From positions 1 through 24,198 of the IMG/VR virus record IMGVR_UViG_3300030328_003459: a DNA stretch of 24,198 nt, one strand, 5' to 3'. The DNA comes from a virus. A model generated the notes under the pieces. The model made no database searches. It was not told where the DNA came from and saw nothing but the letters and a program-made list of their open reading frames with translations. Below are positions 5,829-23,877 of this stretch, piece by piece (positions within the stretch are counted from its first letter, which is position 1; each line of letters begins with the position of its first letter). The translations under genes were made by a program, and so were the position numbers.

Positions 5829-6038
5829 ATGGCTAAAAAAATAATAGAATTATCAAAAGTAGCAAAAACACAAATGTTAGAAGTAAGATTAAAACATGAA
5901 TCTCAAATAATGAAATCTTCAGAAATATTAGACCGATTAGATGAATTAGAAGTTCCTAGCACATATGAATTATTAAAAGAACTAACAATACCTCGTAAAT
6001 ATAAAAACCTATTTATTAGTGATTCTGCTATAAGTTAA
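5829..6038 (+). CDS. Small hypothetical protein at the end of the rightward gene cluster, 69 aa
   Basis: A 69-residue protein (MAKKIIELSKVAKTQMLEVR onward), mainly helical and with mixed charge, no Cys and no membrane segment. A GGAGGA site (5819-5824) precedes its ATG directly after the resolvase stop. It is the last + strand gene. Its TAA stop (6036-6038) overlaps the stop of the opposite-strand 959-aa gene (6035-6037) in the palindrome TTAA. No family is recognised. Close coupling to the resolvase hints at a replication or recombination accessory role, which is inference from position only. Confidence 0.7.
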   Translation: MAKKIIELSKVAKTQMLEVRLKHESQIMKSSEILDRLDELEVPSTYELLKELTIPRKYKNLFISDSAIS

Positions 6039-8914
6039 ACAGTAGTAGGAGAATCTTTGTCTAAATAATCTAAACTTTCTAATACTTTACTACCATAATC
6101 TATATGCTGTAAAGGTTTAATTTTAGGTTTACTATCTTTAAAACTTTCTTTAAGATTTAAAATTCTTTCATTTCTTTCTTCATTTTTTAAATTATATATA
6201 CCTGTTACACCTTTTACAACTGTACCACTAGATTGCTCAACACTATCAGCTTTCAGAATATTAGGTCCTGTCTTAAAGAGAGTTCTATGACCTTGAACAC
6301 TTAATATCTTTGCAATTTTTTCAAAATGAGTCATATCATTGTCTTTTCTAGCAGCTTCTTGCATTCCTAACATAAAAGCAAGTGTATCATTTCTTTGTAT
6401 AATTTTATCCATTCCTACAAGAGTCATAGCATCTAAAATAGTTCCAACAGTAGGTCCTAAGTTACCAGCAATTGGACCTCTTCCAAAAAACAATTCTTGT
6501 GCTTCTTCTTCATCTTCTGCATAAAATAAATCTACCCATCTCTTAAGTTCATCGAAAGCAGCATTTTCAAATAAATTACCTAAAGCGTAGCCACCAAGGT
6601 CTTCTATTAAATCTACCATAGTATAAACAGCACCAAGTCTTACCATTCTTCCAACAGCTGGTGTATTTATTTGACCAGAACGAATATCTCCTAATCCTTG
6701 AGAGACCATATCTTTTTGCATTAAAAAATTACTAAATACATAATGCTTAAACTGTAAAATCAACGCACCTCTTCTAGTTGTTTGTGCAAAAGATTTTTGA
6801 CTAGTACTATAATCGTAATGCAAATATTTTACTATTCTATCAGCAAAATCTTGAGCTCTTTTTTGTCTATATTTATCGAATCTTATATCATATTCGGTTG
6901 ATTCTTTAGATAACAAATCATCATATTGTACTTTATTATGCATATCAGATATTTCTTGCTTTGTATATCTTTTCCCATTTTTCTTTCTAAGACCCATTTC
7001 AAATTTAAGTTTAAGATTAGGTATCCCTATTTTATTTTCCTGTGTAATCCAGTCTTTAGTATATGCGTAATCATAAGTTGAATTTCTATTAAATTCATTT
7101 TCTACTTTTTGCATAAGATAACCAGATTTTTTTGCAATATTATTTACTCCACTGTCTACTCTATCTATAAAAGATTCTCCCATTGAATTTCTATAATTTC
7201 CATCTGGTCCCATCTCAATTGGCATATGCATATCACCGTAAGATTCAGCAATATTTACTTTAAATACACCACTTTTTTCTCTACCTTTAACTATTCTACT
7301 TTGTAAATTTGGTCTTGACTCTTTTACAGCTTTCAAATCTTGAATAGCTAAATGACCAAAATAGATAAAATTAAAAGTTCTTTGAGTCATATTCTTAGCA
7401 GCAGTTCTCAAATTAAAACCTAGCTTAGAAGCAAATTGATAATTGGTTACAATTCTTGTTAACTTATCCCTTAAAGGATTATCTGTTAAACTTGATTCAC
7501 TCTGAAAAAGTCTACCCATATATCCATTTAGCATATCTACAGAAGCATCAAATGAATCATAATCTTTTTGAAAATCAGGATTATATTTTCTACGAGCTCT
7601 TATAACTGAAAGTTCATTTATTGCTTCCATATATGAGCTTGCATTCTCTATTGAGTGTAAAAATTTAACAGAATTTTTATTATAAGATTCTAATAATGGA
7701 AAAATATTATAATCCATATCAACTTTTACATTTAAATCATTCTTTATAACTTTTGATGTATATAAATTTCTTTGCAAAATACCATCTAAAGCTAAAAAAC
7801 CATTCATAGCTTCATCCACTTTATTAGCTTCTCCTGAAAAAACTTTATAAAAGCTAGCTTCTATTTGAGGCAAAATTTCTAATGTTAATATAGGTAATGT
7901 TCCACTTTCTTGTTTATTAATTCTATTTTGAATATCTCTACTAAAATTTTCTAATGATAATATAACTTGATTATATTTTCTATTTTCTTTTATAGATACA
8001 TCTGTACTTCTTTTAAGCAAGCTACTTAACTTATTAATTCCTGATAAGATTTGTTTATCTCTCTTTTTACCTAATTCTCTAAAATCTTTAGAAGCTTTTT
8101 TAACATTCTCATCAATATTTTTATCTTTAATCAATCTCTTATAATCGGAATTATCTGCAATAGATAATATACTAAAATCTCTTAATGCTTTTAATTCGCC
8201 TTTTTTAGTTAAAAAATCTAATGATTCAGAATAGACTTCAATACCATTTTCGTCTATTCCTTTTTCAGAAACCTTTCCCTTTTCATTTCCTCTTAAATAA
8301 AAAGCTTCAGCTGCAGATTCTCCAGTTCTTCCTTCAAATTTTTCTTCTCCTCTTGCTATTTTAGTATACATATTATTTAATCTTTTTAATTTTGAAACTC
8401 CTTCAAGTCCTCTTGCTTCGCTAACTTTTCGTGACAAACTACCTACTTCATATTCATTACTAGCCATTTTTAATCTTTGTATAACTCTTCTAATAGTATT
8501 ATCTCCTACTATAGTTCTACCATTAGCTTTGTCATTAGTTAATAGTATTTTTTGAAAAGCTTTTTTCATTGTAGGATTTATTTTGAAAATTTCTGATTTA
8601 AGATAAATTTCAGAAAGACCAGATTTAGGCATTTTTCTTAAATTCTTTAAAAATTCTTTCTGTAATCTTTTTTGTACTTTTAACTGTTCTACTGTAAGAA
8701 TTCCTTCTTTAGGAATATTTTCTATACCTCTAGCTGAATCTATTTCTAAATTTTCAAACATTTCACTTATTTGATATTCTCCGTATTGAGATATTAAAGG
8801 GTCGTTATAAAAATCTGTTGCTAACTCTTTAGAGGATTGTAACCTTCTTTCTATGTCAGCATTTTCCCTTACATTTTTACTTAACGGTGCACATATTTTT
8901 TCTATAATTCCCAT
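6035..8914 (-). CDS. Large internal virion / polyvalent-type protein, 959 aa
   Basis: A 959-residue, mostly helical late protein. The N-terminal half (1-470) is highly charged with long predicted coiled coils. The C-terminal half contains segments typical of big phage ejection or polyvalent proteins: G-F-N-L-R-T-A-A-K-N-M-T-Q (499-511), S-F-A-Q-T-T-R-R-G-A-L-I-L-Q-F-K (708-723), and a Gly/Pro-rich apolar run G-P-I-A-G-N-L-G-P-T-V-G-T (813-825). These recall the LPD38-like domain at the ends of large polyvalent proteins, an attribution from memory. An AAGG site lies before its ATG, 12 bases after the 2889-aa gene's stop. Role as a protein carried in the capsid and released with the DNA is inferred from position beside the M15 peptidase and giant protein. 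It is the last gene of the leftward late operon. Confidence 0.65.
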   Translation of the reverse strand: MGIIEKICAPLSKNVRENADIERRLQSSKELATDFYNDPLISQYGEYQISEMFENLEIDSARGIENIPKEGILTVEQLKVQKRLQKEFLKNLRKMPKSGLSEIYLKSEIFKINPTMKKAFQKILLTNDKANGRTIVGDNTIRRVIQRLKMASNEYEVGSLSRKVSEARGLEGVSKLKRLNNMYTKIARGEEKFEGRTGESAAEAFYLRGNEKGKVSEKGIDENGIEVYSESLDFLTKKGELKALRDFSILSIADNSDYKRLIKDKNIDENVKKASKDFRELGKKRDKQILSGINKLSSLLKRSTDVSIKENRKYNQVILSLENFSRDIQNRINKQESGTLPILTLEILPQIEASFYKVFSGEANKVDEAMNGFLALDGILQRNLYTSKVIKNDLNVKVDMDYNIFPLLESYNKNSVKFLHSIENASSYMEAINELSVIRARRKYNPDFQKDYDSFDASVDMLNGYMGRLFQSESSLTDNPLRDKLTRIVTNYQFASKLGFNLRTAAKNMTQRTFNFIYFGHLAIQDLKAVKESRPNLQSRIVKGREKSGVFKVNIAESYGDMHMPIEMGPDGNYRNSMGESFIDRVDSGVNNIAKKSGYLMQKVENEFNRNSTYDYAYTKDWITQENKIGIPNLKLKFEMGLRKKNGKRYTKQEISDMHNKVQYDDLLSKESTEYDIRFDKYRQKRAQDFADRIVKYLHYDYSTSQKSFAQTTRRGALILQFKHYVFSNFLMQKDMVSQGLGDIRSGQINTPAVGRMVRLGAVYTMVDLIEDLGGYALGNLFENAAFDELKRWVDLFYAEDEEEAQELFFGRGPIAGNLGPTVGTILDAMTLVGMDKIIQRNDTLAFMLGMQEAARKDNDMTHFEKIAKILSVQGHRTLFKTGPNILKADSVEQSSGTVVKGVTGIYNLKNEERNERILNLKESFKDSKPKIKPLQHIDYGSKVLESLDYLDKDSPTTV

Positions 8915-8926
8915 AATTTACCTTTA

Positions 8927-11900
8927 TTAATTGTTTTTCTTAGCACAGAGCCTAGCTCTTTCACGTCTTTTTCTTTGATTTTCTATAAAGTTTCCTTTAT
9001 GTGCATAGTTCTGTTTTTTTATTGGTTGTTGAATAGTACCATTTCTTACTTGATGGAATAATGAAACTCCTTGTTGCATAGATTTTTCTAATTGGTTAAT
9101 TCCTTCTACTCTATAATCTCCACGACCTTCAAAATGATGCGCTATCAAAGAATCTGGTACAAATCCGCCTTTTCTAACTGTACTTCTATAAATACCAGTA
9201 CCTATTTGTAAATAGAACTGTTCATAAAAACTTAATTGACTTAAACCGCTATTGTTTATTAATGCCTGTACTGGGTCTGAAAGATTTAATAAACTTGTAT
9301 CGTGAGTATTAATTGTTTCTGTAAATGCTTGATAACCTTTTATTGATTTTGTATATGTGTCATCTAATGCACTTTGAATATTCTGTCTATCTCCTTTCAT
9401 GAAAGATACAACATCTCGACTACTTTTTCCAAACTCTAGTGTCAATAAACGAGATGCATTTTCTTGTCCTTCAAATTTTGAAATTCTACTAGTATTATTA
9501 AATTTCATTGCTAAATTAATTCTTCTACTTAATGATTTATCTCCACTAGTAAATGCTAATGTTCCATTAAATTCTACAAAATTAGGTGTTGTCATATCAA
9601 ATTCTGGAGCCATCATTCTAGTTAATATTGCATCTATTTTACTTTCTAATCCATTATCAACTATTAATCTATATATATCTACTTCATAATCAAATTGTAA
9701 TCTATCATAATCTAAAGGAGCATATTTATTTGAGGTTCCTTTAGACACTTCATTGAAATCTTTTTTATATCTATTTATAAGAGCATCAACTTGTCCTTCC
9801 TCTAATCGGTGTAATCTAACCCCTCTTGACGCAATTCTTTGTTCCATTACACCAGCTGTATGTCTAGCAGTTATTTCAGATAAAGTTTCTTGATATTTTT
9901 GAGGCTTAAATAATGCTTTCTTAAATGAATCATCAACCTTACTATTAATTACATCTTTATCAACTGGTTTATCAGATTTAAAAGCTATTTCTTCTTCTTG
10001 TGCTCTAATTCTCTTTTTTAACTCTTTTTTCTTAGCCTCTGACATATTTTTAAACATTTTATCTGAAATTTTTCTTCTTAGGTCTTTAGAATTTTTTTCA
10101 TAACGTTTAGTTCTTTTTTCTAAATAATTTATTAAACCTTGAGATGTTTCTACTCCATCAAGATTTGATTTTAATTCACTCAATTCTCTTAAATCTGACT
10201 TATGTTGTTTTTCAATAAACTTTAACTTTTGACTAGCATCTTCAAAGTTTTTTACCCCCTTTAAAATCTTATTCACAGCCTCTGTTTGATTTTCTAAAAA
10301 ATCATGTGCTATTGTAGTAAATTCACTATCAAAATTAACTCTATCTTCTGGTCTTAAATTTCCATAAGATAGATTTTCTCTATAATTTTTAAATAAAATA
10401 ATATTTTCCCAATCTCTTGGCGACACTCCATCAAGATTTAAACCTTTTACATAAGAACCAGTATCATCAGAATTTGCTAATTTTAAATAGAAATTACTAT
10501 TTATGTTATGTTGTCCAAAGTCTAACACGTTCATTGCGTCTATAAGGTTTTTAGATGATGCTCCCTTTGTTGATGCATTCATTATAGATTGCACCCTACT
10601 TTTTACAATTTTTTCTGCAATTGCTAAGTCTTGAGCATATCTTTCTATATGTCTTGGTCTTTGACTAGGTCTAACAGACCTTTTTCTACCAGTGCTATAA
10701 TCTCCACCAGTATTTCGTAGATATTTTTCAAATATTCCAACATATTCTCTTATAATAACTTTATCTACAGATTCTGGTCTCAATAATGTTCCTCCTTCAG
10801 CATCTGTTATTTCAAAAACTCCATTCTCACCCCAGAATATCTCATCTTGTATTTGTTTTTTACCACTTAATTCTTTTACATTAATAGGATTAGTTTCTGA
10901 ATCTAAAGCTTTTTGATTTAATTCATCTATTTTTCCAACTAAATCATAATTCTCTTTAATATCTTTTCTAACTCGTATATATCTATTATCACCTACTTTA
11001 ACGGCAAGTCCACCTGTTTCAAATTTTTTTGCATTGATTGGTGCAATATGACTTTCAACAGAAGTTAAAAATCTTAATATTTCAGGCATATTCATTACTG
11101 CACCTTTTAATACATTTGATTGTATTTTTTTCTCTAATAATTCAGCAAACGCAGTTTCATCTTTTAAACTAAAACCTTTATGACTATCTGGAATAGTATT
11201 TCCTTCTGGAGTATATATATGTTTTCCTTGAACACTATTAACAGAATCCCAAACTGATTTTGGTTGTGAATAAAGACTTATAACATCATCTATATCATAG
11301 TCTCCTTTTAACTGATGAATTACATCACCACTAGCAACTACTTTTTTATTACCTTGTTTTTCGTTACCTATAGATTTAATTCCTTCAATTATAATGCTAT
11401 TACTTTTTGTTATTGGATTTCTATAAGATAAAGCTGCTACTTGAACTTCATCAATACTATCCAACTCTTTAACCCAATCTTTTAAAGTAGTAAGTTTTTT
11501 CTGATTTTTTTTCTTTGTTAAATCACTTAATTTCTTTTTTCCAGCATTACTTAAATCATTATTCTTTAATTCATTTTTTAAATCTGATATGTGTACTAAT
11601 TTATCTCTACCATTTTTACCGTTTTTAATAATAAATGCCATGTTCTCTGTATCAACAGTTCTTGTTCCAGCAACATAAGATTCAATTGTTTCAGAAAATT
11701 CTATAATTCCATTTTTATCTGCTATCATAGACATTAAATCTCCACTCAAATCTGGATGTATTACAGCATCATTAGAAGATTCTATTTTTCTATCTAAAAT
11801 ATGTTTATCTGCGAACATATCAAAAAATCTATCATATATGACTAATGGGTCAGTTTCTGCTTGAGCTAGATTAAGCAATACGCCAGCTTGCGTATCTTGA

Positions 11901-14900
11901 ACAGCTAATTCTGCGTTTATTTTTCCAGTATTTTCTGAAGCTAAATCTAAAAACTCTTCTCTAGCAAATTTTCTTTGACCTTGAGAACTAAAAATTCTAC
12001 CAAACATAGCTGACTTGCTACGTAATGATGCTCTATAATTATATTCAATAAAATCATCAACAGCTTTCATACCATTATCCATAAATGTAGAAAAGAATCC
12101 AGTAAGATTAGGTGGTAAAGAACCTGTCTTATCTTTTTTAACAGAAAGTAATGAAATATCATCCATTCTAAAATCCATTGATGAAGCTTCTAGTTTATTT
12201 ATGTCTGAGAAATCATCCCATTTATCTGCTCTAAAAATCTTTGAATTTAATTCTGATGACATTGAACTTCCATCATCTGCTTTTATTAAGTCTTTAAAAC
12301 CAGACTTTGCAACAAATATAATTTTTTGATGTTGACTTAATTCTTTTGGAATATTATCTGAAGCAACATTTCTTAATCCAGCTGATTTTATTAAACCTAT
12401 TTCACCATCATCCATTGCTCTATGTCCAACAAATTTAGTACCTGAAACCTTATTAACATCACCTAAAGGAACTCCTAATAACAATGATTGTATTTCTTGA
12501 ATTTCAGGAGGTTGAAATGTAGCAGCATCCATAATACTTACGTCTTTATCGCCCATTGCCTTTAATACAGCTCTTCCTGAATCATGTACTGCTTTTTGTG
12601 TTATAGTTAATCCATTGTAATAGTTTGCATCTAAATTTTCTATATCTACATCATATTTATTTTTTCTATTATCTATTTCTCTTTGTTTTTGACTAAATAA
12701 AGAATTTACTCCATCTACCCCTTCATCTTCTATAACAACAATTTTATATTTTTTATTTATAATATCTTCAGCTGTACTTTTAACTCTTAGTAAATCTTTA
12801 TCTTTTGTACCTATAGAGTCAATATAATGAATCATATCTCTCAATGAATCATTCTTTATACCTCTTGCAGACTTGTTGTCATGTAATTTAAATCTTTTTA
12901 AAGATGAAAATTGTTCTAAGTCAGAACCTTTTCTAAGTTGCATCCAAGTTTTTTTACCAAATCCTAAAGGCGCTGTTTGTCCAAATACTAAATCCCTCAT
13001 CATAGGACTTAAAGTATTAGTTAATTTTTGTCCATCAAATCTACCATCTTTACCTTTAGCTCGTTCCACATCAAATGTATATATTTTATCATTTTCTTTT
13101 TTTCTTATAAGAAATTTATTTTCTAAATCATTTAAAGGTAAATTATTTTCTTTTCTCCAAGTAACATATTTATTAGCAATAACATCTAAGGCATTTTGGT
13201 CCATATTAATAGCAATAACTGTTTTCTCATTTAATCTTACAGGAATTGCATGTAAAGCCTCAACTGAATTAGAAATATCAATCTCAGTATTTATATTTTG
13301 TATTCGACCATCTACCATTTGTAATTCACCAGAAGTTAGACCATCTACTACTTTATCATAAAATAGAACATTATCTAAGGTAGCTGATTGTCTATATACA
13401 TCATTTTGATGTCCAGTATTATTCATAACAAAAATATTTGAATCAAGCTCATCTCTACCTTGAACATCAAATACTTTAGCTATTCCTCTAAAAAGAGGAT
13501 TTTGTTCAAAAGATATTTCTTCAAAACTATTAGTAGCTCTACCTTCATCAAAAGTAATTCTTTTTAATTTAATCTTATTATCTAAATTACCTGAAATACT
13601 TAACAATTCTTGGTCTAAAGCAGATTCATTTACATTTTTATTATTTTTTACAATATCTTCTTTTAATTTTGTCAAGAAAACAGTTTTTTTCATTTCTGGT
13701 TTGATTTTATTATTACTTTTGATTTTAAGATATTCCATCTCTAATTGACCTAGATAATCATTACCATAGTTTTTTACATCATGCTTAAAATTTTTACCTA
13801 ATTTTAAACCAGGATATTTAACAACAAGTTTAGCAACTGTATTAGGAACAATATCTAATTGTCTTGCATCTATAGCATCAAAATCTTGTAAAGTATCATT
13901 TGCTCTTTGATTAATAAAATCATCTTCTTTGAAAGTGTTTTTAGCTTCATTAATCAATTCTTTCATTTTCTCTTGATATAATTTGGTAGTAAGACCCTCG
14001 TCAATCTCTTCTTTTCTTTTAATTCTTTTTTCTTTAGTTAGCCATCCAATAGTATTTAATGCTTTGTAAAAATATTTAGTTTTAGTTTCATCGCCAGACA
14101 TTAATTTGAGTAAATTTTGAATAATTTTTTGGTTTGATTTAGTTTCTCCCGCTATTTGAGCTCTAATAGATTTATCAAACATAGTTAAATTAGTTACATA
14201 TTGTATTGATTTTATCTCATTAATAGATGTAATTAAATTTTCTACGGCTCCAACATCTGAAAAATACTCTTTCCCTTTAGTATCGCTTACTCTTAAATGT
14301 CCAACTTCCATACCATTTTCAGTTCTTAAAATATAAGGAAGTATTTCATTTTGTAAATCTTCAATTAATTGCTGAGATTTTAAAGCTGCTTCATCTGTCG
14401 TAGAAGATGATTTTTCAATTACAGATACAAATTTTCTAATAGTATCATCTGCTCCAGTTTCATATGATTTCAAGAAATCTAAAAATTCTTTTGCAGTATC
14501 AAAATCTTTTAAATTAATATCTCCTAAAATTCCTATGTCTCTTGCAATAGTATTACTATTTCTTCCAGTTAACAATCCAGCTGATTCAAGATTTTGTAAT
14601 ATTATTCTATCTATATTATTATAAGGAACTACATCGCCTTCTGAATCTATTTTTCTTCTACGTAAAAAATCTTCTTTCCAAGCCACATCTGAAACTGCTT
14701 GATTAAATGCAAAGTCTGTATCTGGTCCTTTCCTAGAAAAAATATTCATATTTCCATCTTCAATAAATAGTTGTCTTAATTTTGTAACATTTGTATTTAA
14801 TATTTTTTTCTGCTTAGTAAATTGGACATCATCTCTTTTATAACCTCTCATTAATGGGGCTATAGTTTCCATAAATCTTCTATTTGCATTATTTAAAGCA

Positions 14901-17596
14901 CTTAAATCAAAGTGTTTATCTACGTCATATCTAAATGCACCTTCATCAGCAAATATTTTTTCTATTAATTCTTTCATATCAAAATGAATTTTATTTCCTT
15001 CAACATCACCTCTTTTATTCTCCATTATCTCTCTTAAATATTTAGGAATTTTTTCTGCATGAGTAATCGTTTGCATCATCTTACCAGTATCCCATAGAAA
15101 AGGATTATCTAAAGTTATTTTACCTTTAGGTAAATTACCATCAGAAGTATACAAATCTGCTAAATCATCCAGCAAAGCAGTCATACTATTAACAAGAGTT
15201 TCTTTATCTTTCACATCAATATCATTGATTTTTAATATTTTAGCATTTTCTTGTATTTCTATTCTACCTGTACCAAATTCATTTGCAAAATCTATTGCTT
15301 TCATAAGTTGTGTAAATAATTCTTCATGTTCTACCTTTTCAAAACTTATATCTCCCTTTTCTATTCTTTTTAATTGAAATTTTGATTTATTTAACCACTG
15401 AGTTTTAAGTTCACTAGGAGAAGCATTATCTCCAAGCAATGAATATATATCTAATATTTGTTGAGTCATTGTAGCTATTTTTTGATTATAGTTAGATACA
15501 ACTGGTCTTACATATAGTGGTATTAAATCCTGAGGAACATCCATTCTAACCTGGAATTCTTCCATAGAAGATTTAAAAGAATCAATTTCGCTTTTAGATA
15601 ATTCGTTAAATTTTTTAAAGCTACTGTCTTTATTTACATAATTATAATTATCAAATATATAAGAAAAATTATTATACATTTCTTCCACTAGGTCTTTATC
15701 TTTCATTTTTGCTATAGCAGCTCTATCCTTTTTTGAAACACGAGTTTTTTTACCTGTTTTCTTTAAATATCCCGTATCTAACATACTCTTAATTTGCATA
15801 GTAATTGGGTCTTCTGAGTCAACAGTAGCCATTCTAATAGCCTCTACTGGAGAATTAGGGCTTTGGTTTATTAAAGAATGTCTTATAGCTGCGTATGCAG
15901 GGTGGTCAATACTCAAACCCATAGCATCATTCATTCTAACTTGTTCTTCTAGCTTAAGTTGTCTGTCACCCAACATATCGTTATATCCTGTAGATGTTGT
16001 AGTCCATTGACTTTCTCCATTCTGTAAAGGCTTTCCTTTGTAAGTCATGCGGTGTCCACGTTTAAATAAGAAATATCCCATTGAAGCAGTTACTGCCATT
16101 TGGTCTGGAGATAATGAATGTCCAAATAAGTGATTGTGTGCACCACTCATAGCTAACATTCCTACACCTTGTCTAGCTTTAGTTCCAAACCAGTCTTCTG
16201 CGATAAATTTTGCATACTCTCTTCTTAAACCACCTTTACCAGTCATAGCTTCACCTACTCCATTTAAAGATAATTTCATATATTCAGCAGCAGCTTCTTT
16301 TTGTTCTAAAGTTCCTTTTTCAATTAATTCTTTTAATTTTGTAGGAGATTTTTTGCCACGAAGTATTTCATTATGTTTATTGCTTAATTTTTTAGCTGCT
16401 ACATCCATATTATGATTTAAAGCTGGTTGATTCATTCTTCTATATAAAAGATATGCAGACATTACATCTTTTCTAGGTTCATCGTTAACAGCGCCTTTAA
16501 CATTGGTTTTTTTGTAATAATTTTTAGTTCCTCTAATTAATCCTCTAATTGTATCTCTTGTTTCTTTATTTGTAATATTTAAAGGACCTCTAGGTGCACC
16601 ACCAGGTAGGAATCTTGTTCCTGCTACTACAGGACCAAACATCATCATTTCTAATAAAAATTGTTTTGGAGTTAAATATTGTTCTTCATTTCTATGATGT
16701 CTAGCAGCTACCCAAGCTCCTTCTACCATTGCATATGCCATAGCATCTTCAGCAGCATATCCTAAAAACGTATCTACTGCACCTCTTGGTCTTGAACCTA
16801 TTATTGGTATTCTACTACCAATTCTCGCCTCAGTTATTAAATCAGGTAATGTATTTATTGGTTTACCGCCAATTTCTTTCCAATATTTATTAACACTATT
16901 ATTAATCTTAGTAATAGTTTTATTTTCTCCTTTTACAACTTTACCAAAACTATATCCTAATTTTTTACCTACACCATCTAAATAACTACCAACTCCAGAT
17001 TTCATAATTTTGTCAACTTCGTTGGCTGACATTTTATTTCCTCTAAAAACTTTACCTACATCATCAAAATTATTGATTCCTTTTATTAAATCTGTTTGTT
17101 TTACTACGTCATCAAGAAACTCTTTTCTTGATACTTTTTTACCAGCTCTAGTAATAGGAGTTCCTTTAGGAAGAGCTTTTTTAATAAGACCTATAGTATT
17201 ATCACCAGCATTAATTTGTTTACCTATTTTACTAGCAGCTACAGCGGTTCCTAAAAGTTTAACTCCTTTTGTTCCTGCTGCAACAGCTCCTCCATAAGGA
17301 ACAAAATAACCACCAATAGTACCTAAAGTATACCCTAAAGAATCCTTATCTGCACTCAAACCTAAATGTTTACTTCCATCTCTATATCCAAAAGTTACAC
17401 TTTCTATTGCACCCCCAAGTACATTTTCACCAAATTGCATAGTATTTTCAAGTCCTTTACCAATTCTTCTTCCATCCATAGTATCAAGACTTTCAGATAA
17501 ACTTGTTCCCCAAGAGTCTAATAAGCTTCTTTCTTGCGCTGAATCTGAATCAGGGTTTATAAAGTCATCTAATATTGGTAATTTATCTTGCGGCAT
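8927..17596 (-). CDS. Giant late protein, 2889 aa, probable virion-packaged two-barrel RNA polymerase
   Basis: An 8.7-kb gene in the late operon, between an M15 peptidase and a second large internal-type protein. Residues 50-520 contain Gly/Ala-rich apolar stretches (for example 88-120 and 272-300) typical of proteins ejected with phage DNA. The core resembles a double-psi-beta-barrel RNA polymerase. Residues 2059-2061 read R-N-P, followed about 40 residues later by K-G-D-Y-D-I-D-D (Asp2099, 2101, 2103), matching the beta-prime layout R-x-P ... D-F-D-G-D and the D-x-D-x-D of YonO and crAss-like virion polymerases. About 360 residues earlier, D-A-A-T-F-Q (1690-1695) and G-T-K-F-V-G with Lys1721 and Lys1737 could be the lysine-bearing first barrel. 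No T7-type polymerase motifs were seen. If correct, it is injected with the genome and transcribes early genes. An AAGGAT site precedes its ATG, which overlaps the peptidase stop by one base. Confidence 0.65.
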   Translation of the reverse strand: MPQDKLPILDDFINPDSDSAQERSLLDSWGTSLSESLDTMDGRRIGKGLENTMQFGENVLGGAIESVTFGYRDGSKHLGLSADKDSLGYTLGTIGGYFVPYGGAVAAGTKGVKLLGTAVAASKIGKQINAGDNTIGLIKKALPKGTPITRAGKKVSRKEFLDDVVKQTDLIKGINNFDDVGKVFRGNKMSANEVDKIMKSGVGSYLDGVGKKLGYSFGKVVKGENKTITKINNSVNKYWKEIGGKPINTLPDLITEARIGSRIPIIGSRPRGAVDTFLGYAAEDAMAYAMVEGAWVAARHHRNEEQYLTPKQFLLEMMMFGPVVAGTRFLPGGAPRGPLNITNKETRDTIRGLIRGTKNYYKKTNVKGAVNDEPRKDVMSAYLLYRRMNQPALNHNMDVAAKKLSNKHNEILRGKKSPTKLKELIEKGTLEQKEAAAEYMKLSLNGVGEAMTGKGGLRREYAKFIAEDWFGTKARQGVGMLAMSGAHNHLFGHSLSPDQMAVTASMGYFLFKRGHRMTYKGKPLQNGESQWTTTSTGYNDMLGDRQLKLEEQVRMNDAMGLSIDHPAYAAIRHSLINQSPNSPVEAIRMATVDSEDPITMQIKSMLDTGYLKKTGKKTRVSKKDRAAIAKMKDKDLVEEMYNNFSYIFDNYNYVNKDSSFKKFNELSKSEIDSFKSSMEEFQVRMDVPQDLIPLYVRPVVSNYNQKIATMTQQILDIYSLLGDNASPSELKTQWLNKSKFQLKRIEKGDISFEKVEHEELFTQLMKAIDFANEFGTGRIEIQENAKILKINDIDVKDKETLVNSMTALLDDLADLYTSDGNLPKGKITLDNPFLWDTGKMMQTITHAEKIPKYLREIMENKRGDVEGNKIHFDMKELIEKIFADEGAFRYDVDKHFDLSALNNANRRFMETIAPLMRGYKRDDVQFTKQKKILNTNVTKLRQLFIEDGNMNIFSRKGPDTDFAFNQAVSDVAWKEDFLRRRKIDSEGDVVPYNNIDRIILQNLESAGLLTGRNSNTIARDIGILGDINLKDFDTAKEFLDFLKSYETGADDTIRKFVSVIEKSSSTTDEAALKSQQLIEDLQNEILPYILRTENGMEVGHLRVSDTKGKEYFSDVGAVENLITSINEIKSIQYVTNLTMFDKSIRAQIAGETKSNQKIIQNLLKLMSGDETKTKYFYKALNTIGWLTKEKRIKRKEEIDEGLTTKLYQEKMKELINEAKNTFKEDDFINQRANDTLQDFDAIDARQLDIVPNTVAKLVVKYPGLKLGKNFKHDVKNYGNDYLGQLEMEYLKIKSNNKIKPEMKKTVFLTKLKEDIVKNNKNVNESALDQELLSISGNLDNKIKLKRITFDEGRATNSFEEISFEQNPLFRGIAKVFDVQGRDELDSNIFVMNNTGHQNDVYRQSATLDNVLFYDKVVDGLTSGELQMVDGRIQNINTEIDISNSVEALHAIPVRLNEKTVIAINMDQNALDVIANKYVTWRKENNLPLNDLENKFLIRKKENDKIYTFDVERAKGKDGRFDGQKLTNTLSPMMRDLVFGQTAPLGFGKKTWMQLRKGSDLEQFSSLKRFKLHDNKSARGIKNDSLRDMIHYIDSIGTKDKDLLRVKSTAEDIINKKYKIVVIEDEGVDGVNSLFSQKQREIDNRKNKYDVDIENLDANYYNGLTITQKAVHDSGRAVLKAMGDKDVSIMDAATFQPPEIQEIQSLLLGVPLGDVNKVSGTKFVGHRAMDDGEIGLIKSAGLRNVASDNIPKELSQHQKIIFVAKSGFKDLIKADDGSSMSSELNSKIFRADKWDDFSDINKLEASSMDFRMDDISLLSVKKDKTGSLPPNLTGFFSTFMDNGMKAVDDFIEYNYRASLRSKSAMFGRIFSSQGQRKFAREEFLDLASENTGKINAELAVQDTQAGVLLNLAQAETDPLVIYDRFFDMFADKHILDRKIESSNDAVIHPDLSGDLMSMIADKNGIIEFSETIESYVAGTRTVDTENMAFIIKNGKNGRDKLVHISDLKNELKNNDLSNAGKKKLSDLTKKKNQKKLTTLKDWVKELDSIDEVQVAALSYRNPITKSNSIIIEGIKSIGNEKQGNKKVVASGDVIHQLKGDYDIDDVISLYSQPKSVWDSVNSVQGKHIYTPEGNTIPDSHKGFSLKDETAFAELLEKKIQSNVLKGAVMNMPEILRFLTSVESHIAPINAKKFETGGLAVKVGDNRYIRVRKDIKENYDLVGKIDELNQKALDSETNPINVKELSGKKQIQDEIFWGENGVFEITDAEGGTLLRPESVDKVIIREYVGIFEKYLRNTGGDYSTGRKRSVRPSQRPRHIERYAQDLAIAEKIVKSRVQSIMNASTKGASSKNLIDAMNVLDFGQHNINSNFYLKLANSDDTGSYVKGLNLDGVSPRDWENIILFKNYRENLSYGNLRPEDRVNFDSEFTTIAHDFLENQTEAVNKILKGVKNFEDASQKLKFIEKQHKSDLRELSELKSNLDGVETSQGLINYLEKRTKRYEKNSKDLRRKISDKMFKNMSEAKKKELKKRIRAQEEEIAFKSDKPVDKDVINSKVDDSFKKALFKPQKYQETLSEITARHTAGVMEQRIASRGVRLHRLEEGQVDALINRYKKDFNEVSKGTSNKYAPLDYDRLQFDYEVDIYRLIVDNGLESKIDAILTRMMAPEFDMTTPNFVEFNGTLAFTSGDKSLSRRINLAMKFNNTSRISKFEGQENASRLLTLEFGKSSRDVVSFMKGDRQNIQSALDDTYTKSIKGYQAFTETINTHDTSLLNLSDPVQALINNSGLSQLSFYEQFYLQIGTGIYRSTVRKGGFVPDSLIAHHFEGRGDYRVEGINQLEKSMQQGVSLFHQVRNGTIQQPIKKQNYAHKGNFIENQRKRRERARLCAKKNN

Positions 17597-18006
17597 TAGT
17601 TATCTTCATCCTTTGTAGACCAATGCCACCATTCATCATCAGGTCTAGATTGTATTAATCCTAAAGAATCTAATACTGCTTTTACTCTTGGATTATTTCT
17701 CATTTCTTCTGTTTGAGCTAAATCGAATGCTTTTCCTTTTACATGAAATGATTTATCGGGAGTAGAAACTAAACCTTCTTTAACTGTTCCTATAGACGCA
17801 TCGTATTGTTCTTGCTGTACATTCTCATATCTAAATGTATCTCCTACTTGTAAATCTATTCCTTCTGATGCTAAAATACTTTTTGCTTCATTAAATATAG
17901 GCAATAAATCTTTATGTAGCCTAATTCTATTTCCTTCAATGTTTAGTATTCCTGAATCTACTACACCTTCAGGTAACCAAGGTTGTTTACTAGGTTCTGA
18001 ATTCAT
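17596..18006 (-). CDS. M15-family peptidoglycan peptidase (zinc endopeptidase/carboxypeptidase)
   Basis: A 136-residue zinc peptidase of the M15 (VanY / L-Ala-D-Glu endopeptidase-like) fold that cleaves the stem peptides of peptidoglycan. The zinc site is complete: S-F-H-V-K-G-K-A-F-D-L (His88, Asp95) and D-E-W-W-H-W-S (His128) with the catalytic Glu125; Arg59 sits in the conserved T-F-R region. There is no signal peptide. Position inside the internal-virion cassette, rather than next to the holin, suggests it opens the wall during DNA entry, although an endolysin role is also possible. The ATG has no Shine-Dalgarno: the 25 bases upstream are almost pure A. Six bases separate it from an upstream stop preceded by A11, raising the possibility of synthesis as a fusion. 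Its TAA overlaps the giant gene's ATG. Confidence 0.85.
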   Translation of the reverse strand: MNSEPSKQPWLPEGVVDSGILNIEGNRIRLHKDLLPIFNEAKSILASEGIDLQVGDTFRYENVQQEQYDASIGTVKEGLVSTPDKSFHVKGKAFDLAQTEEMRNNPRVKAVLDSLGLIQSRPDDEWWHWSTKDEDN

Positions 18007-18011
18007 CTTTT

Positions 18012-19325
18012 TTATTTTTTTTTTTCGTTATTATAATTACTAATAAAAAGTTTGTCTCTTTGGATTATTGATTCTAATTTATCTAATGCTTTTATTTCTG
18101 AATCAAATCTATTCGTAGATAATTCTGAATATATTCTCATATCTTCTGGATTCATTTGACTCTGAGTACTATACATATCAGAATACATATTCATTTCATC
18201 CTTTCTTCTCTTTGTTTGTATTTTCTTTTCTTTTTCAAGAGCAGTTCTTTTTTTACTAATAAGTGCTAAAGCATCTGACATTGTACTTTTATTCTTATAA
18301 TAAAATGCTAGGTCATACTTGGCGCTCCCTTTAATACTAGTATTTTGAGAAGATAAACCAAAAGCTTTTAATCCTTTATCCTCATCTTCAAAAAGTGCGT
18401 TCATTAATCTTGTTAACTCTTTTCTTTCGTCATTATCATAATAAATACCAGTAGATTTACCTTCACCTGATTTAATCTTAGCAGCTTCAGGGTCCATGTT
18501 GTCTGCAACAACACTATCAATGCTTTCTAATATTTTATTTCTATCAGAAATCTCACCAGCTACAGCTTCAGCTTCACTTTTTACTTGATTGCTAAAAGCT
18601 TGTTTTAAATCAAAAGATACTTCAGTATCAGGAATACCAGTTTCTCTTTGAATTTTTAAATCACCTGTTTTCTTAAGTTCCTCAATCTCTGTATCAATAT
18701 CTTCACTTACAGTATTTAGTTGCGAAAATCTAGCTAATACACTATTTCCTTTAGCTAAATTATACTGACTTACAACGCCTTCATCAGTAATTTCTGCAAA
18801 TAACCCTATATTTGAAAATCCTTTTGTATAGTCTTTTATATTTCCACTAGATAGTATATCCTTTATATAATTAGTAACAATAGTATGTTGACCAGGATTA
18901 GAAAGATAAGCAGTCACAACTGCATATATTTCTTTTTGTTGAGAACTTGAAAATCCAGCTGTTTCAAGATTTTTATATACTAAGTCCCTATATCCTGTGA
19001 GATTAAAAGTATCTTCATCTAAAGCTCCAGTAGTATCATTATATTGACCATCATCTGTGATAAATAAAGGTTTAAAGTATCTATCAACTAAATTATCAGT
19101 TTCATTTTGTATTTCTAATTCTACATTTCTCTTAGAATCTTTTAAATGCGTTTCAGTTTCGTTTCTTAATTTTAATTCTAATTCTTCTTGTGCTCTATTT
19201 GAAGCTTCTTGTCTAAATTTATTATCTGAGGCTAGAGTTAAAGCTGCTAAAGAAGCTTCTTGTTCTGCTCTAAATTCAGATGTTTCTGAATCCATTATTG
19301 TTTTTATTGTATCTAATATTGACAT
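18012..19325 (-). CDS. Coiled-coil-rich internal virion-type protein, 437 aa
   Basis: A 437-residue acidic, soluble protein with long helical stretches: residues 15-80 are Glu/Gln/Asn-rich with few helix breakers, and 345-437 are Lys/Glu-rich. The middle part (90-330) looks globular, with L-S-N-P-G-Q-H-T-I and G-K-S-T-G-I-Y-Y. No catalytic motif is recognised. Its place between a gp14-like protein and a peptidoglycan peptidase corresponds to T7 gp15 in the ejection cassette, so a role in the trans-envelope channel is a reasonable guess. It starts at a TAATG overlap with the upstream gene. It ends in N-N-E-K-K-K encoded by an A11 run, where slippage would fuse it to the downstream peptidase to make about 576 residues. 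Confidence 0.6.
   Translation of the reverse strand: MSILDTIKTIMDSETSEFRAEQEASLAALTLASDNKFRQEASNRAQEELELKLRNETETHLKDSKRNVELEIQNETDNLVDRYFKPLFITDDGQYNDTTGALDEDTFNLTGYRDLVYKNLETAGFSSSQQKEIYAVVTAYLSNPGQHTIVTNYIKDILSSGNIKDYTKGFSNIGLFAEITDEGVVSQYNLAKGNSVLARFSQLNTVSEDIDTEIEELKKTGDLKIQRETGIPDTEVSFDLKQAFSNQVKSEAEAVAGEISDRNKILESIDSVVADNMDPEAAKIKSGEGKSTGIYYDNDERKELTRLMNALFEDEDKGLKAFGLSSQNTSIKGSAKYDLAFYYKNKSTMSDALALISKKRTALEKEKKIQTKRRKDEMNMYSDMYSTQSQMNPEDMRIYSELSTNRFDSEIKALDKLESIIQRDKLFISNYNNEKKK
18015..18025 (-). other. A11 slippery tract at the end of the 437-aa gene
   Basis: On the coding strand eleven consecutive A residues directly precede the TAA stop. One added A in the transcript, or a -1 ribosomal shift, reads through as I-K-K into the ATG of the M15 peptidase in frame. 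The tract is also a place where sequencing or assembly could miscount by one. Confidence 0.8.
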
Positions 19326-19849
19326 TATGAACTTCCTCCGCTAAATAAAGAGCCAGCTATAGAAAATAAAGAATTTTTCTTCTTTCTCAAAGAACGATTT
19401 GCTCTTCTATACTGGTTCTGCTTTTCTATACTGCTCGCTATATTAGATTTACTAGTAGTAGTAACTCCTGCTATAGATTTTTGTCTTCTATTTTCAAGTG
19501 CTGTTAATACATCTGTATAATCTTCTTGAGTTTTACGCTCTAAATCTTCTGCCATTTCATTTTGTTCTCCAGACAATCTAAATCCTGATGGATTAGCCTC
19601 TAAAGACATATCTAATTTTTTTAATACATCCTGAACATTTTTAGATTGTTCGTCAATTTTCATCCCTGTTTCTTCATTGATAGAATCAATTTGTGCATAC
19701 ATACTATCTTCTTGAGCTTGCTGATATTCGGATTCATTTCTTATTAATTCATTATTTCCTCTTATAGAAATTGCAGCTTGATTAGCCTCTCCTTGTCCTT
19801 TTCGTATTTTGGCTAATGTATCAAGACCCAGTGCTATTGCTTTAAACAT
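19325..19849 (-). CDS. Internal virion protein, T7 gp14-like architecture, 174 aa
   Basis: A 174-residue protein with an N-terminal helix (MFKAIALGLDTLAKIRKGQG), a long Gln/Asn/Glu-rich helical centre (24-70), and a C-terminal basic segment followed by a short apolar Gly/Ser end (S-L-F-S-I-A-G-S-L-F-S-G-G-S-S). T7 gp14 is of similar size and plan: N-terminal apolar helix, charged helical middle with repeated Q and A, and apolar Ser/Gly-rich tail near the end. In T7 that protein is ejected into the outer membrane at infection. The match here is architectural and positional, not a demonstrated sequence match. Its stop overlaps the 437-aa gene start by one base (TAATG), and it lies four bases after the upstream stop. 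Confidence 0.55.
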   Translation of the reverse strand: MFKAIALGLDTLAKIRKGQGEANQAAISIRGNNELIRNESEYQQAQEDSMYAQIDSINEETGMKIDEQSKNVQDVLKKLDMSLEANPSGFRLSGEQNEMAEDLERKTQEDYTDVLTALENRRQKSIAGVTTTSKSNIASSIEKQNQYRRANRSLRKKKNSLFSIAGSLFSGGSS

Positions 19850-20413: not shown

Positions 20414-20713
20414 TTATTCTGTTTTAGCTTTAACAAACTTTCTTACTACAGCAGAATCATTAACAGGTCTACCATCAGACATGTTTATCCAAGCATTATT
20501 CAATTTTACATATTGTGATATTTTATTTAAATTTTTAGGGTCTCTATAATATACAACATCCCCATTTTGACCAGATTCTTTATCTGGTAAACTTGTAACA
20601 ATCTTTGATTTATTTTGTGATAAATGTCTAATTGTACGACTAATATTAGAAGCACCACCTCCACCAGCTCCTCCTCTAAATATCTGAAACTTTTTTTCTG
20701 CTTGTTCTGCCAT
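20414..20713 (-). CDS. Small Gly-rich tail-associated protein, 99 aa
   Basis: A 99-residue protein with a short charged start, a glycine-rich linker (F-R-G-G-A-G-G-G-G-A-S-N, residues 12-23), and then a small beta-type module: L-P-D-K-E-S-G-Q-N-G-D-V-V-Y-Y-R-D, then S-Q-Y-V-K-L-N-N-A-W. The 'G-D-hydrophobic ... K-x-x-x-W' pattern resembles short modules in tail fibre and head-fibre proteins. The precise role is unknown. The start overlaps the stop of the 405-aa tail gene by one base, which supports a tail or virion-surface function. Confidence 0.6.
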   Translation of the reverse strand: MAEQAEKKFQIFRGGAGGGGASNISRTIRHLSQNKSKIVTSLPDKESGQNGDVVYYRDPKNLNKISQYVKLNNAWINMSDGRPVNDSAVVRKFVKAKTE

Positions 20714-21930
20714 TACTTTACACTCTTTCTTCTATATATAATTGTTATGTCATTTATTTCAAAATCATGTGGAACACTTTGTCCTGATACATTAGCTAGT
20801 TCTATAGCAAAACTTCTTGCTCCATTAGCATTTGTATTAGTATTTAATTCTATTTCTGACCAATTACTATTACCATTTATATATCTTGTTGTACCATCGC
20901 CAGTAACACCTGTAATAGTAGCCCCATCATTATTAATAAAATGATTTGTAAAAGCTCCACCATCGATAGCATATTTAGGAACAATATTCACATTTGCTCC
21001 ATTACCACCCTTATAAGTTATTCTTACTTTTGCAATTTTCTTTTTGGCTTGTGTTTGAAATACTAATTCTTTTGTTTGTATTTTATAAGTACTTATATCA
21101 CCGCTAGTAGAATCACTATTATCTAATTCTGGTTTAAAAGGAACAACTGTGATTTGATTATTACTATTTTCATATCCATATATTAATTCATTGTCCCAAA
21201 TATTTACCATATTTGTTTTATCTTTAGCTAACAATCTTCCAGTTCCCTTAGTCCAAGCACGCAATATCATATCGTAAATTAATACATCATCTGCATTTGC
21301 TGCTTCAAAACTTTTAACAAACATAACTTGTTTTGTTGAAGGAATATACCCTACCATAGTTTTGCCATCGATATAAAAATCTTCCCAAGTACTTTTTGAT
21401 AATGTCTTAATTCCTTGTTTAACATTTAATTCAACTATTTGTTGTCCATTATACATATAAGCACCTTGATTATTGCACCAAACAACACCGTAATCAGTCT
21501 CTACAACTGCATTATGATGAGTTACTCCTTTAAATTTATGGCTAGTTTCCAAAAATTCTCTAGATTTAGTAGCATTAATAACATGGAGAGTATTTTGCTT
21601 AAATTGTAAAATTCTATCAGCAAAAGAAGCAAGTCTTATAATTTCTTCACCATCACTTACAGCTACATCAATTCTTCTATCCAATGTAAATGAATCATAT
21701 TTATTACTTTTGCTCTTAAATATACTATCGCTTAAAATCTTTGTAGTGCCATCAGACTGAACTATTTGTACATTACCTATATAAACTCTAGTATTTAACA
21801 AAACAGACGTTTTCCACTTAATACTAGAAATGTAATTTCTTTCATCAAAAGGTAAATTTTGTTTAGGAGGAAACTCAAAAGGGTCACCTAAATGATATTT
21901 TCCAGGATTCATTAATGCATAATTAGCCAT
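20713..21930 (-). CDS. Tail hub/tube beta-propeller protein, C-terminal part, 405 aa
   Basis: A 405-residue beta-rich protein with repeats expected of the propeller-like hub or tubular protein of podovirus tails. Landmarks are W-K-T-S-V-L-L-N-T-R-V-Y-I-G-N-V (39-54), D-R-I-L-Q-F-K-Q-N-T-L-H-V-I-N (105-119), and V-V-E-T-D-Y-G-V-V-W-C-N-N-Q-G-A-Y (142-158). The last 130 residues are Asn/Gly/Thr-rich strands with N-W-S-E-I-E-L and F-E-I-N-D-I-T-I-I-Y, a jelly-roll-like end. It starts at a TAATG overlap with the 527-aa gene, which carries the complementary N-terminal part of the same hub architecture. The two probably act together in the tail. Whether they are naturally separate chains is discussed in the findings. 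Confidence 0.7.
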   Translation of the reverse strand: MANYALMNPGKYHLGDPFEFPPKQNLPFDERNYISSIKWKTSVLLNTRVYIGNVQIVQSDGTTKILSDSIFKSKSNKYDSFTLDRRIDVAVSDGEEIIRLASFADRILQFKQNTLHVINATKSREFLETSHKFKGVTHHNAVVETDYGVVWCNNQGAYMYNGQQIVELNVKQGIKTLSKSTWEDFYIDGKTMVGYIPSTKQVMFVKSFEAANADDVLIYDMILRAWTKGTGRLLAKDKTNMVNIWDNELIYGYENSNNQITVVPFKPELDNSDSTSGDISTYKIQTKELVFQTQAKKKIAKVRITYKGGNGANVNIVPKYAIDGGAFTNHFINNDGATITGVTGDGTTRYINGNSNWSEIELNTNTNANGARSFAIELANVSGQSVPHDFEINDITIIYRRKSVK

Positions 21931-23513
21931 TATATTTCTACCTCTTGTTCATAATCATCTGGTTCTACTGCCCCACTATTTGTTATTGTCATTGTATATA
22001 TCCCACTATCTGCTATAGAATTAAAATTTTCATCTAGTACTTCTACTCTAAATTCTCTATCTGTACCTGGTCCAGGAAGTGTCATTGGTACATAATATAC
22101 ATCATCAGCACTACCTAAACTTCCACCACCAGTAGCCAAAGGTATAAGAGAATTATTAACAGAATTTACATATAAAGGAGATACTGCTCCTCCCCATACT
22201 CTTAAAAATCCATATCTAGTAGTTTCATTAGTAGCAGCTCCAAAACCTGTAGCACTATTATTATTATCTAATTTTATTCTTAAATATACTTGAGAATATG
22301 ATTTACCTTGTGTGCTACTATTATAAGCAGTACCACTTTCCATCCAACTAGTTCCACTACCATCAGATTTATCGTGAAAAGATATTGCGCTATTAGATGT
22401 AGTTTCATTATTCCATATAGATATTCCTTCAGTTCTAACATTAAAACCACCTTGAGCAGTTGTATCTCCAGCCCATATACCATAGTTTCCTTCTGATGTA
22501 GCATTAAATACGCCCCAAAAATGTTTTCCACCTTTTTGTAAATCAGTATTTTTTAAAAATATCCACTCATCTTCACCTTGTTCTTTAAAATACCAATTAA
22601 TACCAATAGCTCTATTTTCGCCACCTAATAAATGATTAGCACTACTAGATATTGTACTACTTTCTCCAATTGATATAAATACCTGAAAAGAAAGTCTGTT
22701 ATTATACAAAGATAATACACTATCTGTTTTATTTACAAAATTATCATATATAGTAGCAATTGGACCTTCTTGGTCGTCTTTATAAACTATTGTAGCTCCA
22801 AATATGTAGTTTCCATTCCAATCGCCACCATCATCTTTCATATAACCTAAGAAAACTTTACCAGAAGCGTTTCCTATAGTTCCAGAAGGAGGATTTGCAG
22901 ATGTAACATCTAATAATTTTAATTCACCATTTGTTAATTGATTTAAATCTCTAAATTTTTGATTACCGCTATCAAACTTTTTAATATCATGTTTATTTCC
23001 AGTATTTCCATTTGAAGAAGTCCAATATAAAGTTGAATCTATATATCCAAACCATTTACTATTTTGAGAAAATGTAGAGTCACTAATACGTAACATTCCT
23101 TCACCATAATAATAGTTAGGTTTAATTGGACCTCCAAATACAACTTCATTAGACATTAATCCGCCTTCTTCATTTCCGTCACTATCTGCATCTGGTTTAT
23201 CTCTATAGTAAAATCTAACTTTGTTATTAGACTTATTATATAAAGCTAAATAGTCTTCTGCTCTATTTGCTCCACCAGAATCGTAATCTTGTGAAAAGAA
23301 ATGCAAACCATATCCTGGTTCTATATCCATAGACTGACCAGATAAAGCTGAATTAATAGCAGCTCCCTTATTTCCCATTACCATTACTTTACCTATTTTA
23401 TGTAAAGAAACTCCATCGGCTTCCCTTAATTCTATATCTTGTATATCCTTAGGGTCTGAATTATCATTGATTCCCCCATGAAATCCTAATATTTGATGTT
23501 CTTGTTTAGGCAC
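21930..23513 (-). CDS. Tail hub/stabilisation protein, N-terminal part, 527 aa
   Basis: A 527-residue beta-rich tail protein. The N-terminus reads G-F-H-G-G-I-N-D-N-S-D-P-K-D-I-Q-D-I-E-L (residues 10-29), followed by R-E-A-D-G-V-S-L-H-K-I-G-K-V. This is the hallmark opening of podovirus tail hub or stabilisation proteins, with G-G-I/L-N, P, then 'G-x-hydrophobic' strands. The middle (60-300) has propeller-like repeats, and the C-terminal third contains Ig/FnIII-like strands (E-F-R-V-E-V-L-D-E-N-F). It likely joins the portal to the tail tip. The start overlaps the holin stop by eight bases, and the stop overlaps the 405-aa gene. Assignment to hub versus tubular protein B is uncertain. Confidence 0.7.
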   Translation of the reverse strand: MPKQEHQILGFHGGINDNSDPKDIQDIELREADGVSLHKIGKVMVMGNKGAAINSALSGQSMDIEPGYGLHFFSQDYDSGGANRAEDYLALYNKSNNKVRFYYRDKPDADSDGNEEGGLMSNEVVFGGPIKPNYYYGEGMLRISDSTFSQNSKWFGYIDSTLYWTSSNGNTGNKHDIKKFDSGNQKFRDLNQLTNGELKLLDVTSANPPSGTIGNASGKVFLGYMKDDGGDWNGNYIFGATIVYKDDQEGPIATIYDNFVNKTDSVLSLYNNRLSFQVFISIGESSTISSSANHLLGGENRAIGINWYFKEQGEDEWIFLKNTDLQKGGKHFWGVFNATSEGNYGIWAGDTTAQGGFNVRTEGISIWNNETTSNSAISFHDKSDGSGTSWMESGTAYNSSTQGKSYSQVYLRIKLDNNNSATGFGAATNETTRYGFLRVWGGAVSPLYVNSVNNSLIPLATGGGSLGSADDVYYVPMTLPGPGTDREFRVEVLDENFNSIADSGIYTMTITNSGAVEPDDYEQEVEI

Positions 23514-23877
23514 TACGTTTCACCTTCTCAAAACTGCGCATCCCCCCGAGACCGAGCATTCCAAGAAGTACTGTTGTAAGAGTGCCCATATCAAAGGTTG
23601 GTAATACTATTTCATTTCCAAAACTATACATAATAAATGTAAGTAAAGGTTGCAATAAAAAGTGATACCCTAATGCTGTGGCACATATCCAGCCCGTGAA
23701 GGGCCTCCAGCCCGCAACAAAGATACTTGTATGACCAGCTTCAACTTTATTGACTTCCATTTGTGCTTTATTAATTTCTGCAATTAATTCAGCTTTCTCC
23801 TGTTTGTCTAAAGTAAACTTGTCTACATGACCTGCAACCTTATCAATAATACCAGCAACTATATCTAGTTTAGGCAT
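23506..23877 (-). CDS. Holin, GTA-type three-TM family
   Basis: A 123-residue holin of the type used for release of gene-transfer agents and many phages; holins open the inner membrane so that endolysin and other lysis factors can act. The N-terminal 50 residues form a charged amphipathic helix (D-K-Q-E-K-A-E-L-I-A-E-I-N-K-A-Q). The signature V-A-G-W-R-P-F-T-G-W (54-63) enters membrane segments around 60-85 and 98-112, and L-G-M-L-G-L-G-G-M-R-S-F-E-K closes the protein. The N-terminal helix could be the third membrane-associated segment. Base composition is higher in GC than its neighbours (three of its 60-base blocks reach about 42-52%), which suggests separate origin. It is flanked by a small membrane protein and the tail hub gene; no endolysin lies directly beside it. 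Confidence 0.88.
   Translation of the reverse strand: MPKLDIVAGIIDKVAGHVDKFTLDKQEKAELIAEINKAQMEVNKVEAGHTSIFVAGWRPFTGWICATALGYHFLLQPLLTFIMYSFGNEIVLPTFDMGTLTTVLLGMLGLGGMRSFEKVKRSA

Follow-up and report, generated by a model that had tools for sequence, protein, structure and literature searches.

The locus raises the question of whether a giant late protein of 2889 residues (P0001), encoded among structural genes, is an RNA polymerase and, if so, whether it would act from the virion or be made for use in the infected cell. The window, i.e., the whole stretch of DNA analyzed here, is a genome fragment of 24,198 bases and comprises the entire IMG/VR record IMGVR_UViG_3300030328_003459. Neither PHROGs, Pfam, PDB sequences nor 50,697 phage records gave a useful match in direct searches with P0001, and scanning bacterial and archaeal genomes revealed no copy of the giant protein. 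With a probability of roughly 85%, we read it as a single-chain DNA-dependent RNA polymerase with two double-psi barrels, housed inside an ejection protein of a short-tailed phage and used in the manner of the virion polymerase gp66 of phage phi14:2. This reading is supported by the motif, its conservation, the predicted two-barrel fold, and the synteny and late structural position of the gene. Catalysis, packaging, ejection and early transcription would follow by analogy with two-barrel enzymes, phi14:2, P23-45 and N4, for which we draw on PMC10770324, PMC12633501, PMC7824862 and PMC7886860.

Predicted catalytic motif and barrels

The features of the giant gene are listed below, where A7 denotes the 46-sequence core alignment that was used for conservation and for the structural model.

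8927–17596, minus strand: giant late protein P0001 of 2889 residues, with the predicted polymerase core (open reading frame; complete copies in IMG/VR relatives span 2,813–3,003 residues)
10100–13342, minus strand: predicted RNA polymerase core, residues 1419–2499, the segment modeled, with approximate limits (A7, AlphaFold2, Foldseek)
12122–12544, minus strand: predicted first barrel, DPBB-B, beta-like, about residues 1685–1825, with D1690, K1721, K1737 and K1768; limits approximate (invariance, hhalign to gp66 'TDAQAWIT', strands of the model)
12386–12388, minus strand: codon of the invariant lysine K1737 (conservation in A7)
12293–12295, minus strand: codon of the invariant lysine K1768, in an S/T-x-x-K motif (conservation in A7; opposite gp66 K1065 when the profiles are aligned globally)
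11252–11794, minus strand: predicted second barrel, DPBB-A, beta-prime-like, about residues 1935–2115; limits approximate (hhalign to the gp66 family, model)
11414–11422, minus strand: R2059-N-P motif (conservation in A7, motif count)
11288–11302, minus strand: D2099-Y-D-I-D, predicted catalytic metal-binding motif (conservation, motif count)
11093–11158, minus strand: long helix following the catalytic motif, residues 2147–2168, with invariant G2165 (A7, model)

The D-Y-D-I-D that the first-pass annotation had read on the coding strand at 11288–11302 is confirmed by the minus-strand bases, and the distance of 40 residues that it gave between R-N-P and D-x-D-x-D is exact from R2059 to D2099 and identical in all 46 aligned sequences. 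The pattern R-x-P-x(28-45)-D[YF]DxD occurs once in P0001. As it also arises in 41 of 20,000 shuffles of the protein (~0.2%), the three-part motif by itself is suggestive, not decisive, and the same rate is what speaks for a motif that arose by chance or survives as a dead remnant within a structural protein.

Relatives from IMG/VR allow the motif to be judged by its conservation. A scan that used a stretch of residues surrounding the motif retrieved full-length proteins closely related to P0001, 52–57% identical over the segment queried: one has 2,893 residues, and an identical protein of 2,925 residues occurs in three contigs. A degenerate search at the DNA level for R-N-P paired with D-x-D-x-D added the close relative L092 and a second clade. 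This clade, for which a profile-based IMG/VR scan yielded 71 loci, reads E-G-D-Y-D-A-D at the catalytic motif and is 14–19% identical to the window core; its profile recognizes the window protein with an E value of 6e-11 (best of 200 shuffled controls, 0.13). Searches with a full-length member of the second clade were likewise negative for the phage collection and PHROGs and gave nothing above cut-off in Pfam.

Positions invariant in A7 include D1690, K1737, K1768, R2059, P2061, G2098, D2099, Y2100, D2101 and D2103. The D-x-D-x-D triad, whose lack of conservation in homologues had been named at the outset as an argument against a polymerase, is kept in 46 of 46 sequences. Since motif patterns served in part to gather the loci, and loci without the motif were then filtered out, some of the constancy of R, P and D reflects how the set was assembled, and for this reason a hypergeometric test of invariance is given no weight here; when the motif filter was omitted, a single second-clade locus of the 71 (L194) departed, with Lys replacing R2059, and the R-to-D spacing of 40 was found in the other 70. 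D1690, K1737 and K1768 were not selected for. That the triad and the lysines are invariant across clades of such low identity contradicts a chance motif or dead remnant, as do the fold match and the profile register with gp66 described below, and we regard that reading as barely credible.

In the second barrel, catalytic magnesium ions would be bound by D2099, D2101 and D2103, upstream of which lies R2059-N-P, and the first barrel would supply K1737 and K1768, with K1721 nearby, these lysines stabilizing the reaction. Judging from the model, the helix at residues 2147–2168 is a possible bridge helix. The first-pass annotation had proposed D-A-A-T-F-Q and the K1721/K1737 region as the first barrel. 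This holds insofar as D1690-A-A aligns with T-D-A-Q of gp66 and K1737 is invariant; the position of K1721 (ungapped, 16 residues before K1737), however, carries Lys in only 39 of 46 sequences, and K1768, which belongs to the first barrel and has S or T three residues before it in 46 of 46, had been overlooked. The matching stretch of gp66 holds lysines K1012, K1027 and K1065, conserved across the crAss set, and by order and spacing these are the likely counterparts of K1721, K1737 and K1768, respectively. The best local hhalign match of the first barrel sets DVSIMDAATFQP on DVNQTDAQAWIT (E value 0.02; 0 of 60 permutations reach the score); taken alone, the profile evidence for this barrel is weak.

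Predicted fold and relationship to phi14:2 gp66

The AlphaFold2 model of the core computed from A7 has a mean pLDDT of 67 and a pTM of 0.65, with much of both barrel regions at 80–92. In the structural comparison that had been suggested for this protein, Foldseek placed the two-barrel phi14:2 virion RNA polymerase (6vr4) at the top of the PDB with an E value of 2.3e-7 and a probability of 1.00, the sole match below 1e-3, and the matches ranked 2–50 are all RNA polymerase subunits. The TM-score to 6vr4 is low (0.23 on query length), as are whole-chain TM-scores to solved structures generally. A poor model built from three sequences (pLDDT 45), taken as a negative control, had no match below 1e-3. 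When the core model was compared with predicted viral structures, 19 matches fell below 1e-3, several crAss phage proteins among them; the top matches are unnamed UniProt A0A516... entries (A0A516L9L2 and A0A516M3R5; E value 8.9e-31, TM-score 0.60), which on this comparison of models appear to be members of the giant-polymerase family.

Profile–profile comparison, likewise envisaged earlier, puts the catalytic motifs in register with the phi14:2 gp66 family. When A7 was compared with aligned gp66 homologues of crAss and Flavobacterium phages, hhalign matched the second barrel with a probability of 92% and an E value of 6.5e-7 over 50 columns, a score reached by 0 of 60 column permutations. In this register DYDID lies on DFDID and RNP on RIP, and the first-barrel motif match is collinear with it. 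Over the whole core the match was weak (E value 0.01). A PDB sequence search with the 46-sequence profile returned nothing real, so that the link to 6vr4 rests on the fold and on the barrel-limited profile comparison. Tblastn with the giant protein and the core against the phage collection, in which 139 records match gp66, recovered no crAss record; two of its matches, the Zobellviridae protein PQ867841 and MT835557, were rejected because the catalytic motif was absent or there was no plausible frame. As a separate observation, a protein of Flavobacterium phage Fpv1 (L225) annotated as 'structural protein' has a two-barrel motif with D-Y-D-I-D, the variant found in the window.

Gene neighborhood and phage group

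The genes flanking the giant gene on the same strand are the following.

6035–8914, minus strand: 959-residue partner protein directly downstream of the giant gene, a probable co-ejected protein (tblastn matches in 56 second-clade loci; synteny)
18012–19849, minus strand: proteins of 437 and 174 residues, upstream, probable internal virion proteins by position (similar-sized genes there in relatives)
20713–21930, minus strand: 405-residue protein upstream of the giant gene, a probable tail component (tblastn matches in 57 second-clade loci)

The order is common to both clades and runs from a tail-like protein through small proteins and proteins of ~170 and ~250–430 residues to the giant protein and a ~950-residue protein, after which both clades have a convergent cluster that contains a gene resembling resolvases, DnaB, a D12 methylase and a ~257-residue gene. 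No convincing family match was obtained for the 959-residue protein.

This arrangement bears on a reading that we consider unlikely, in which the two-barrel RNA polymerase would be made in the infected cell, stay unpackaged and transcribe later genes like P23-45 gp64. Non-virion two-barrel polymerases do exist (PMC10770324); here, however, the gene is in both clades part of the late structural strand, flanked by tail genes on one side and by a conserved large partner on the other, and the core is embedded in a far larger conserved protein, like N4 gp50. Moreover, the closest structural relative, gp66, is virion-packaged, this phi14:2 protein being annotated as a virion protein by mass spectrometry. 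The structural rather than replicative position of the gene, together with RNA polymerases as the best structural matches, also argues against a two-barrel enzyme with another activity, e.g., a PolD-like DNA polymerase or a replication primase, a reading we take to be very improbable even though PolD has the same double-barrel active site (PMC10770324) and the phages carry DnaB, with no DNA polymerase recognized among the proteins searched. As a packaged enzyme, the polymerase would be synthesized late and enter the head along with its neighbors of 437, 174 and 959 residues; ejected together with them and the DNA, it would then transcribe the first phage genes independently of host RNA polymerase. 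Gene position and the precedent of phi14:2 indicate that packaging and ejection probably occur.

P0001 had no Pfam RNA_pol match that would indicate a T7-like RNA polymerase, PF00940 was absent from 14 of 14 records in a search run without a positive control, and intergenic regions yielded no recurring promoter-like motif. The polymerase is present in one copy per record in 14 of 14 tested, and a P22-like portal in 12 of 14. The virus had been described as a small podovirus; the longest related contigs measure 48–54 kb, so it is not especially small. One related contig (G001, IMGVR_UViG_3300037991_003035) has a capsid protein of SU10 type; its terminase belongs to phrog_38, and among the matches listed for it are Vibrio, Lentibacter, Roseobacter and Pseudomonas phages. 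An affiliation with Crassvirales was not found: the portal matches are non-crAss phages, and the terminase matches listed likewise name other phages.

Several further observations were made in these genomes. The window contains a 400-base non-coding stretch in the early cluster (779–1178), a possible promoter or RNA element, which holds two exact copies of ATCTCAGTTCTGAA and a AGGTTCCTGAG element common to G001. Its part from 779 to 1035 outscores dinucleotide shuffles in folding (z −2.7), G001 and L214 have gaps at the corresponding place, and the stretch has no Rfam match. Directly upstream of the giant gene, a 136-residue protein (17596–18006) with weak M15/VanY peptidase similarity, below curated cut-offs, is a possible cell-wall enzyme of the ejection apparatus. 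A 123-residue protein at 23506–23877 shows hydrophobic stretches by eye and is holin-like. The early region of G001 includes 1,720 bases (12062–13781) without an open reading frame of at least 60 residues, and near both ends of that contig (171–1315 and 51703–52856) there is a diverged duplicate of a gene pair (92 and ~290 residues). In the portal genes of three records (G009, G007 and G015), the matches to the P22-like portal family cross in-frame TAA codons.

Comparison with known polymerases and significance

Like the predicted core, phi14:2 gp66 (6vr4; gp077 in KC821624), the top structural match, is a single chain with two double-psi barrels, has R-x-P followed at 39 residues by D-F-D-I-D as well as a T-D-A-Q first-barrel motif, and is encoded by a large late structural gene. 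It is shorter (2180 vs. 2889 residues), is not matched by direct sequence search and belongs to a ~100 kb Crassvirales phage, whereas the window represents an undescribed ~50 kb group with a P22-like portal and an SU10-type capsid protein. YonO-like, QDE-1/RDR and phiKZ/AR9 multisubunit RNA polymerases share the two-barrel superfamily and the D-x-D-x-D active site; to our knowledge YonO and QDE-1 are not virion ejection proteins, and phiKZ-type RNA polymerases are split over several subunits. In Thermus phage P23-45, gp96 is another two-barrel virion polymerase within a giant phage structural protein, and according to PMC10770324 it was found by the same D-x-D-x-D search idea as used here. That polymerase is clamp-less and forms the N-terminal part of the tape measure protein, 5,002 residues in length, of a long-tailed phage, whereas the core in the window lies at about residues 1419–2499, in phages that appear to be short-tailed. 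The Schitoviridae polymerase N4 gp50 is giant, single-chain and ejected, in a short-tailed phage that also has companion proteins for ejection (PMC12633501). Its fold is a T7-like palm, unrelated to the two-barrel fold predicted for the window core, and the likeness would therefore be convergent.

The general arrangement, a giant structural protein that contains a two-barrel virion polymerase, is already known from phi14:2 and P23-45. What is new is a family that has no name in the searched libraries, lies beyond ordinary search and occurs in a different phage group, and the combination of a two-barrel core with a giant ejection protein laid out as in N4. The family was not described in literature searches covering main texts and a minority of subscription journals; it may have been recognized earlier, because the unnamed UniProt entries appear to be members and a survey of two-barrel enzymes has been published (PMC10770324). 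Much more tentatively, and with more doubt than confidence, we suggest that an undescribed podovirus family built a giant ejected two-barrel transcription machine independently of crAss phages, P23-45 and N4, which would set this family apart as a deep lineage among single-chain two-barrel polymerases, with a promoter system of its own.

The main reading would extend virion-packaged two-barrel RNA polymerases beyond crAss-like, jumbo and P23-45 phages to uncultured podoviruses of ~50 kb that are diverse in sequence, a group whose giant polymerase ordinary annotation leaves blank. N4's solution, a giant ejected polymerase, would have been reached with an unrelated catalytic fold. The sequences would provide a deep new family for reconstructing the evolution of two-barrel polymerases, and the early transcription strategy of this podovirus group becomes testable.
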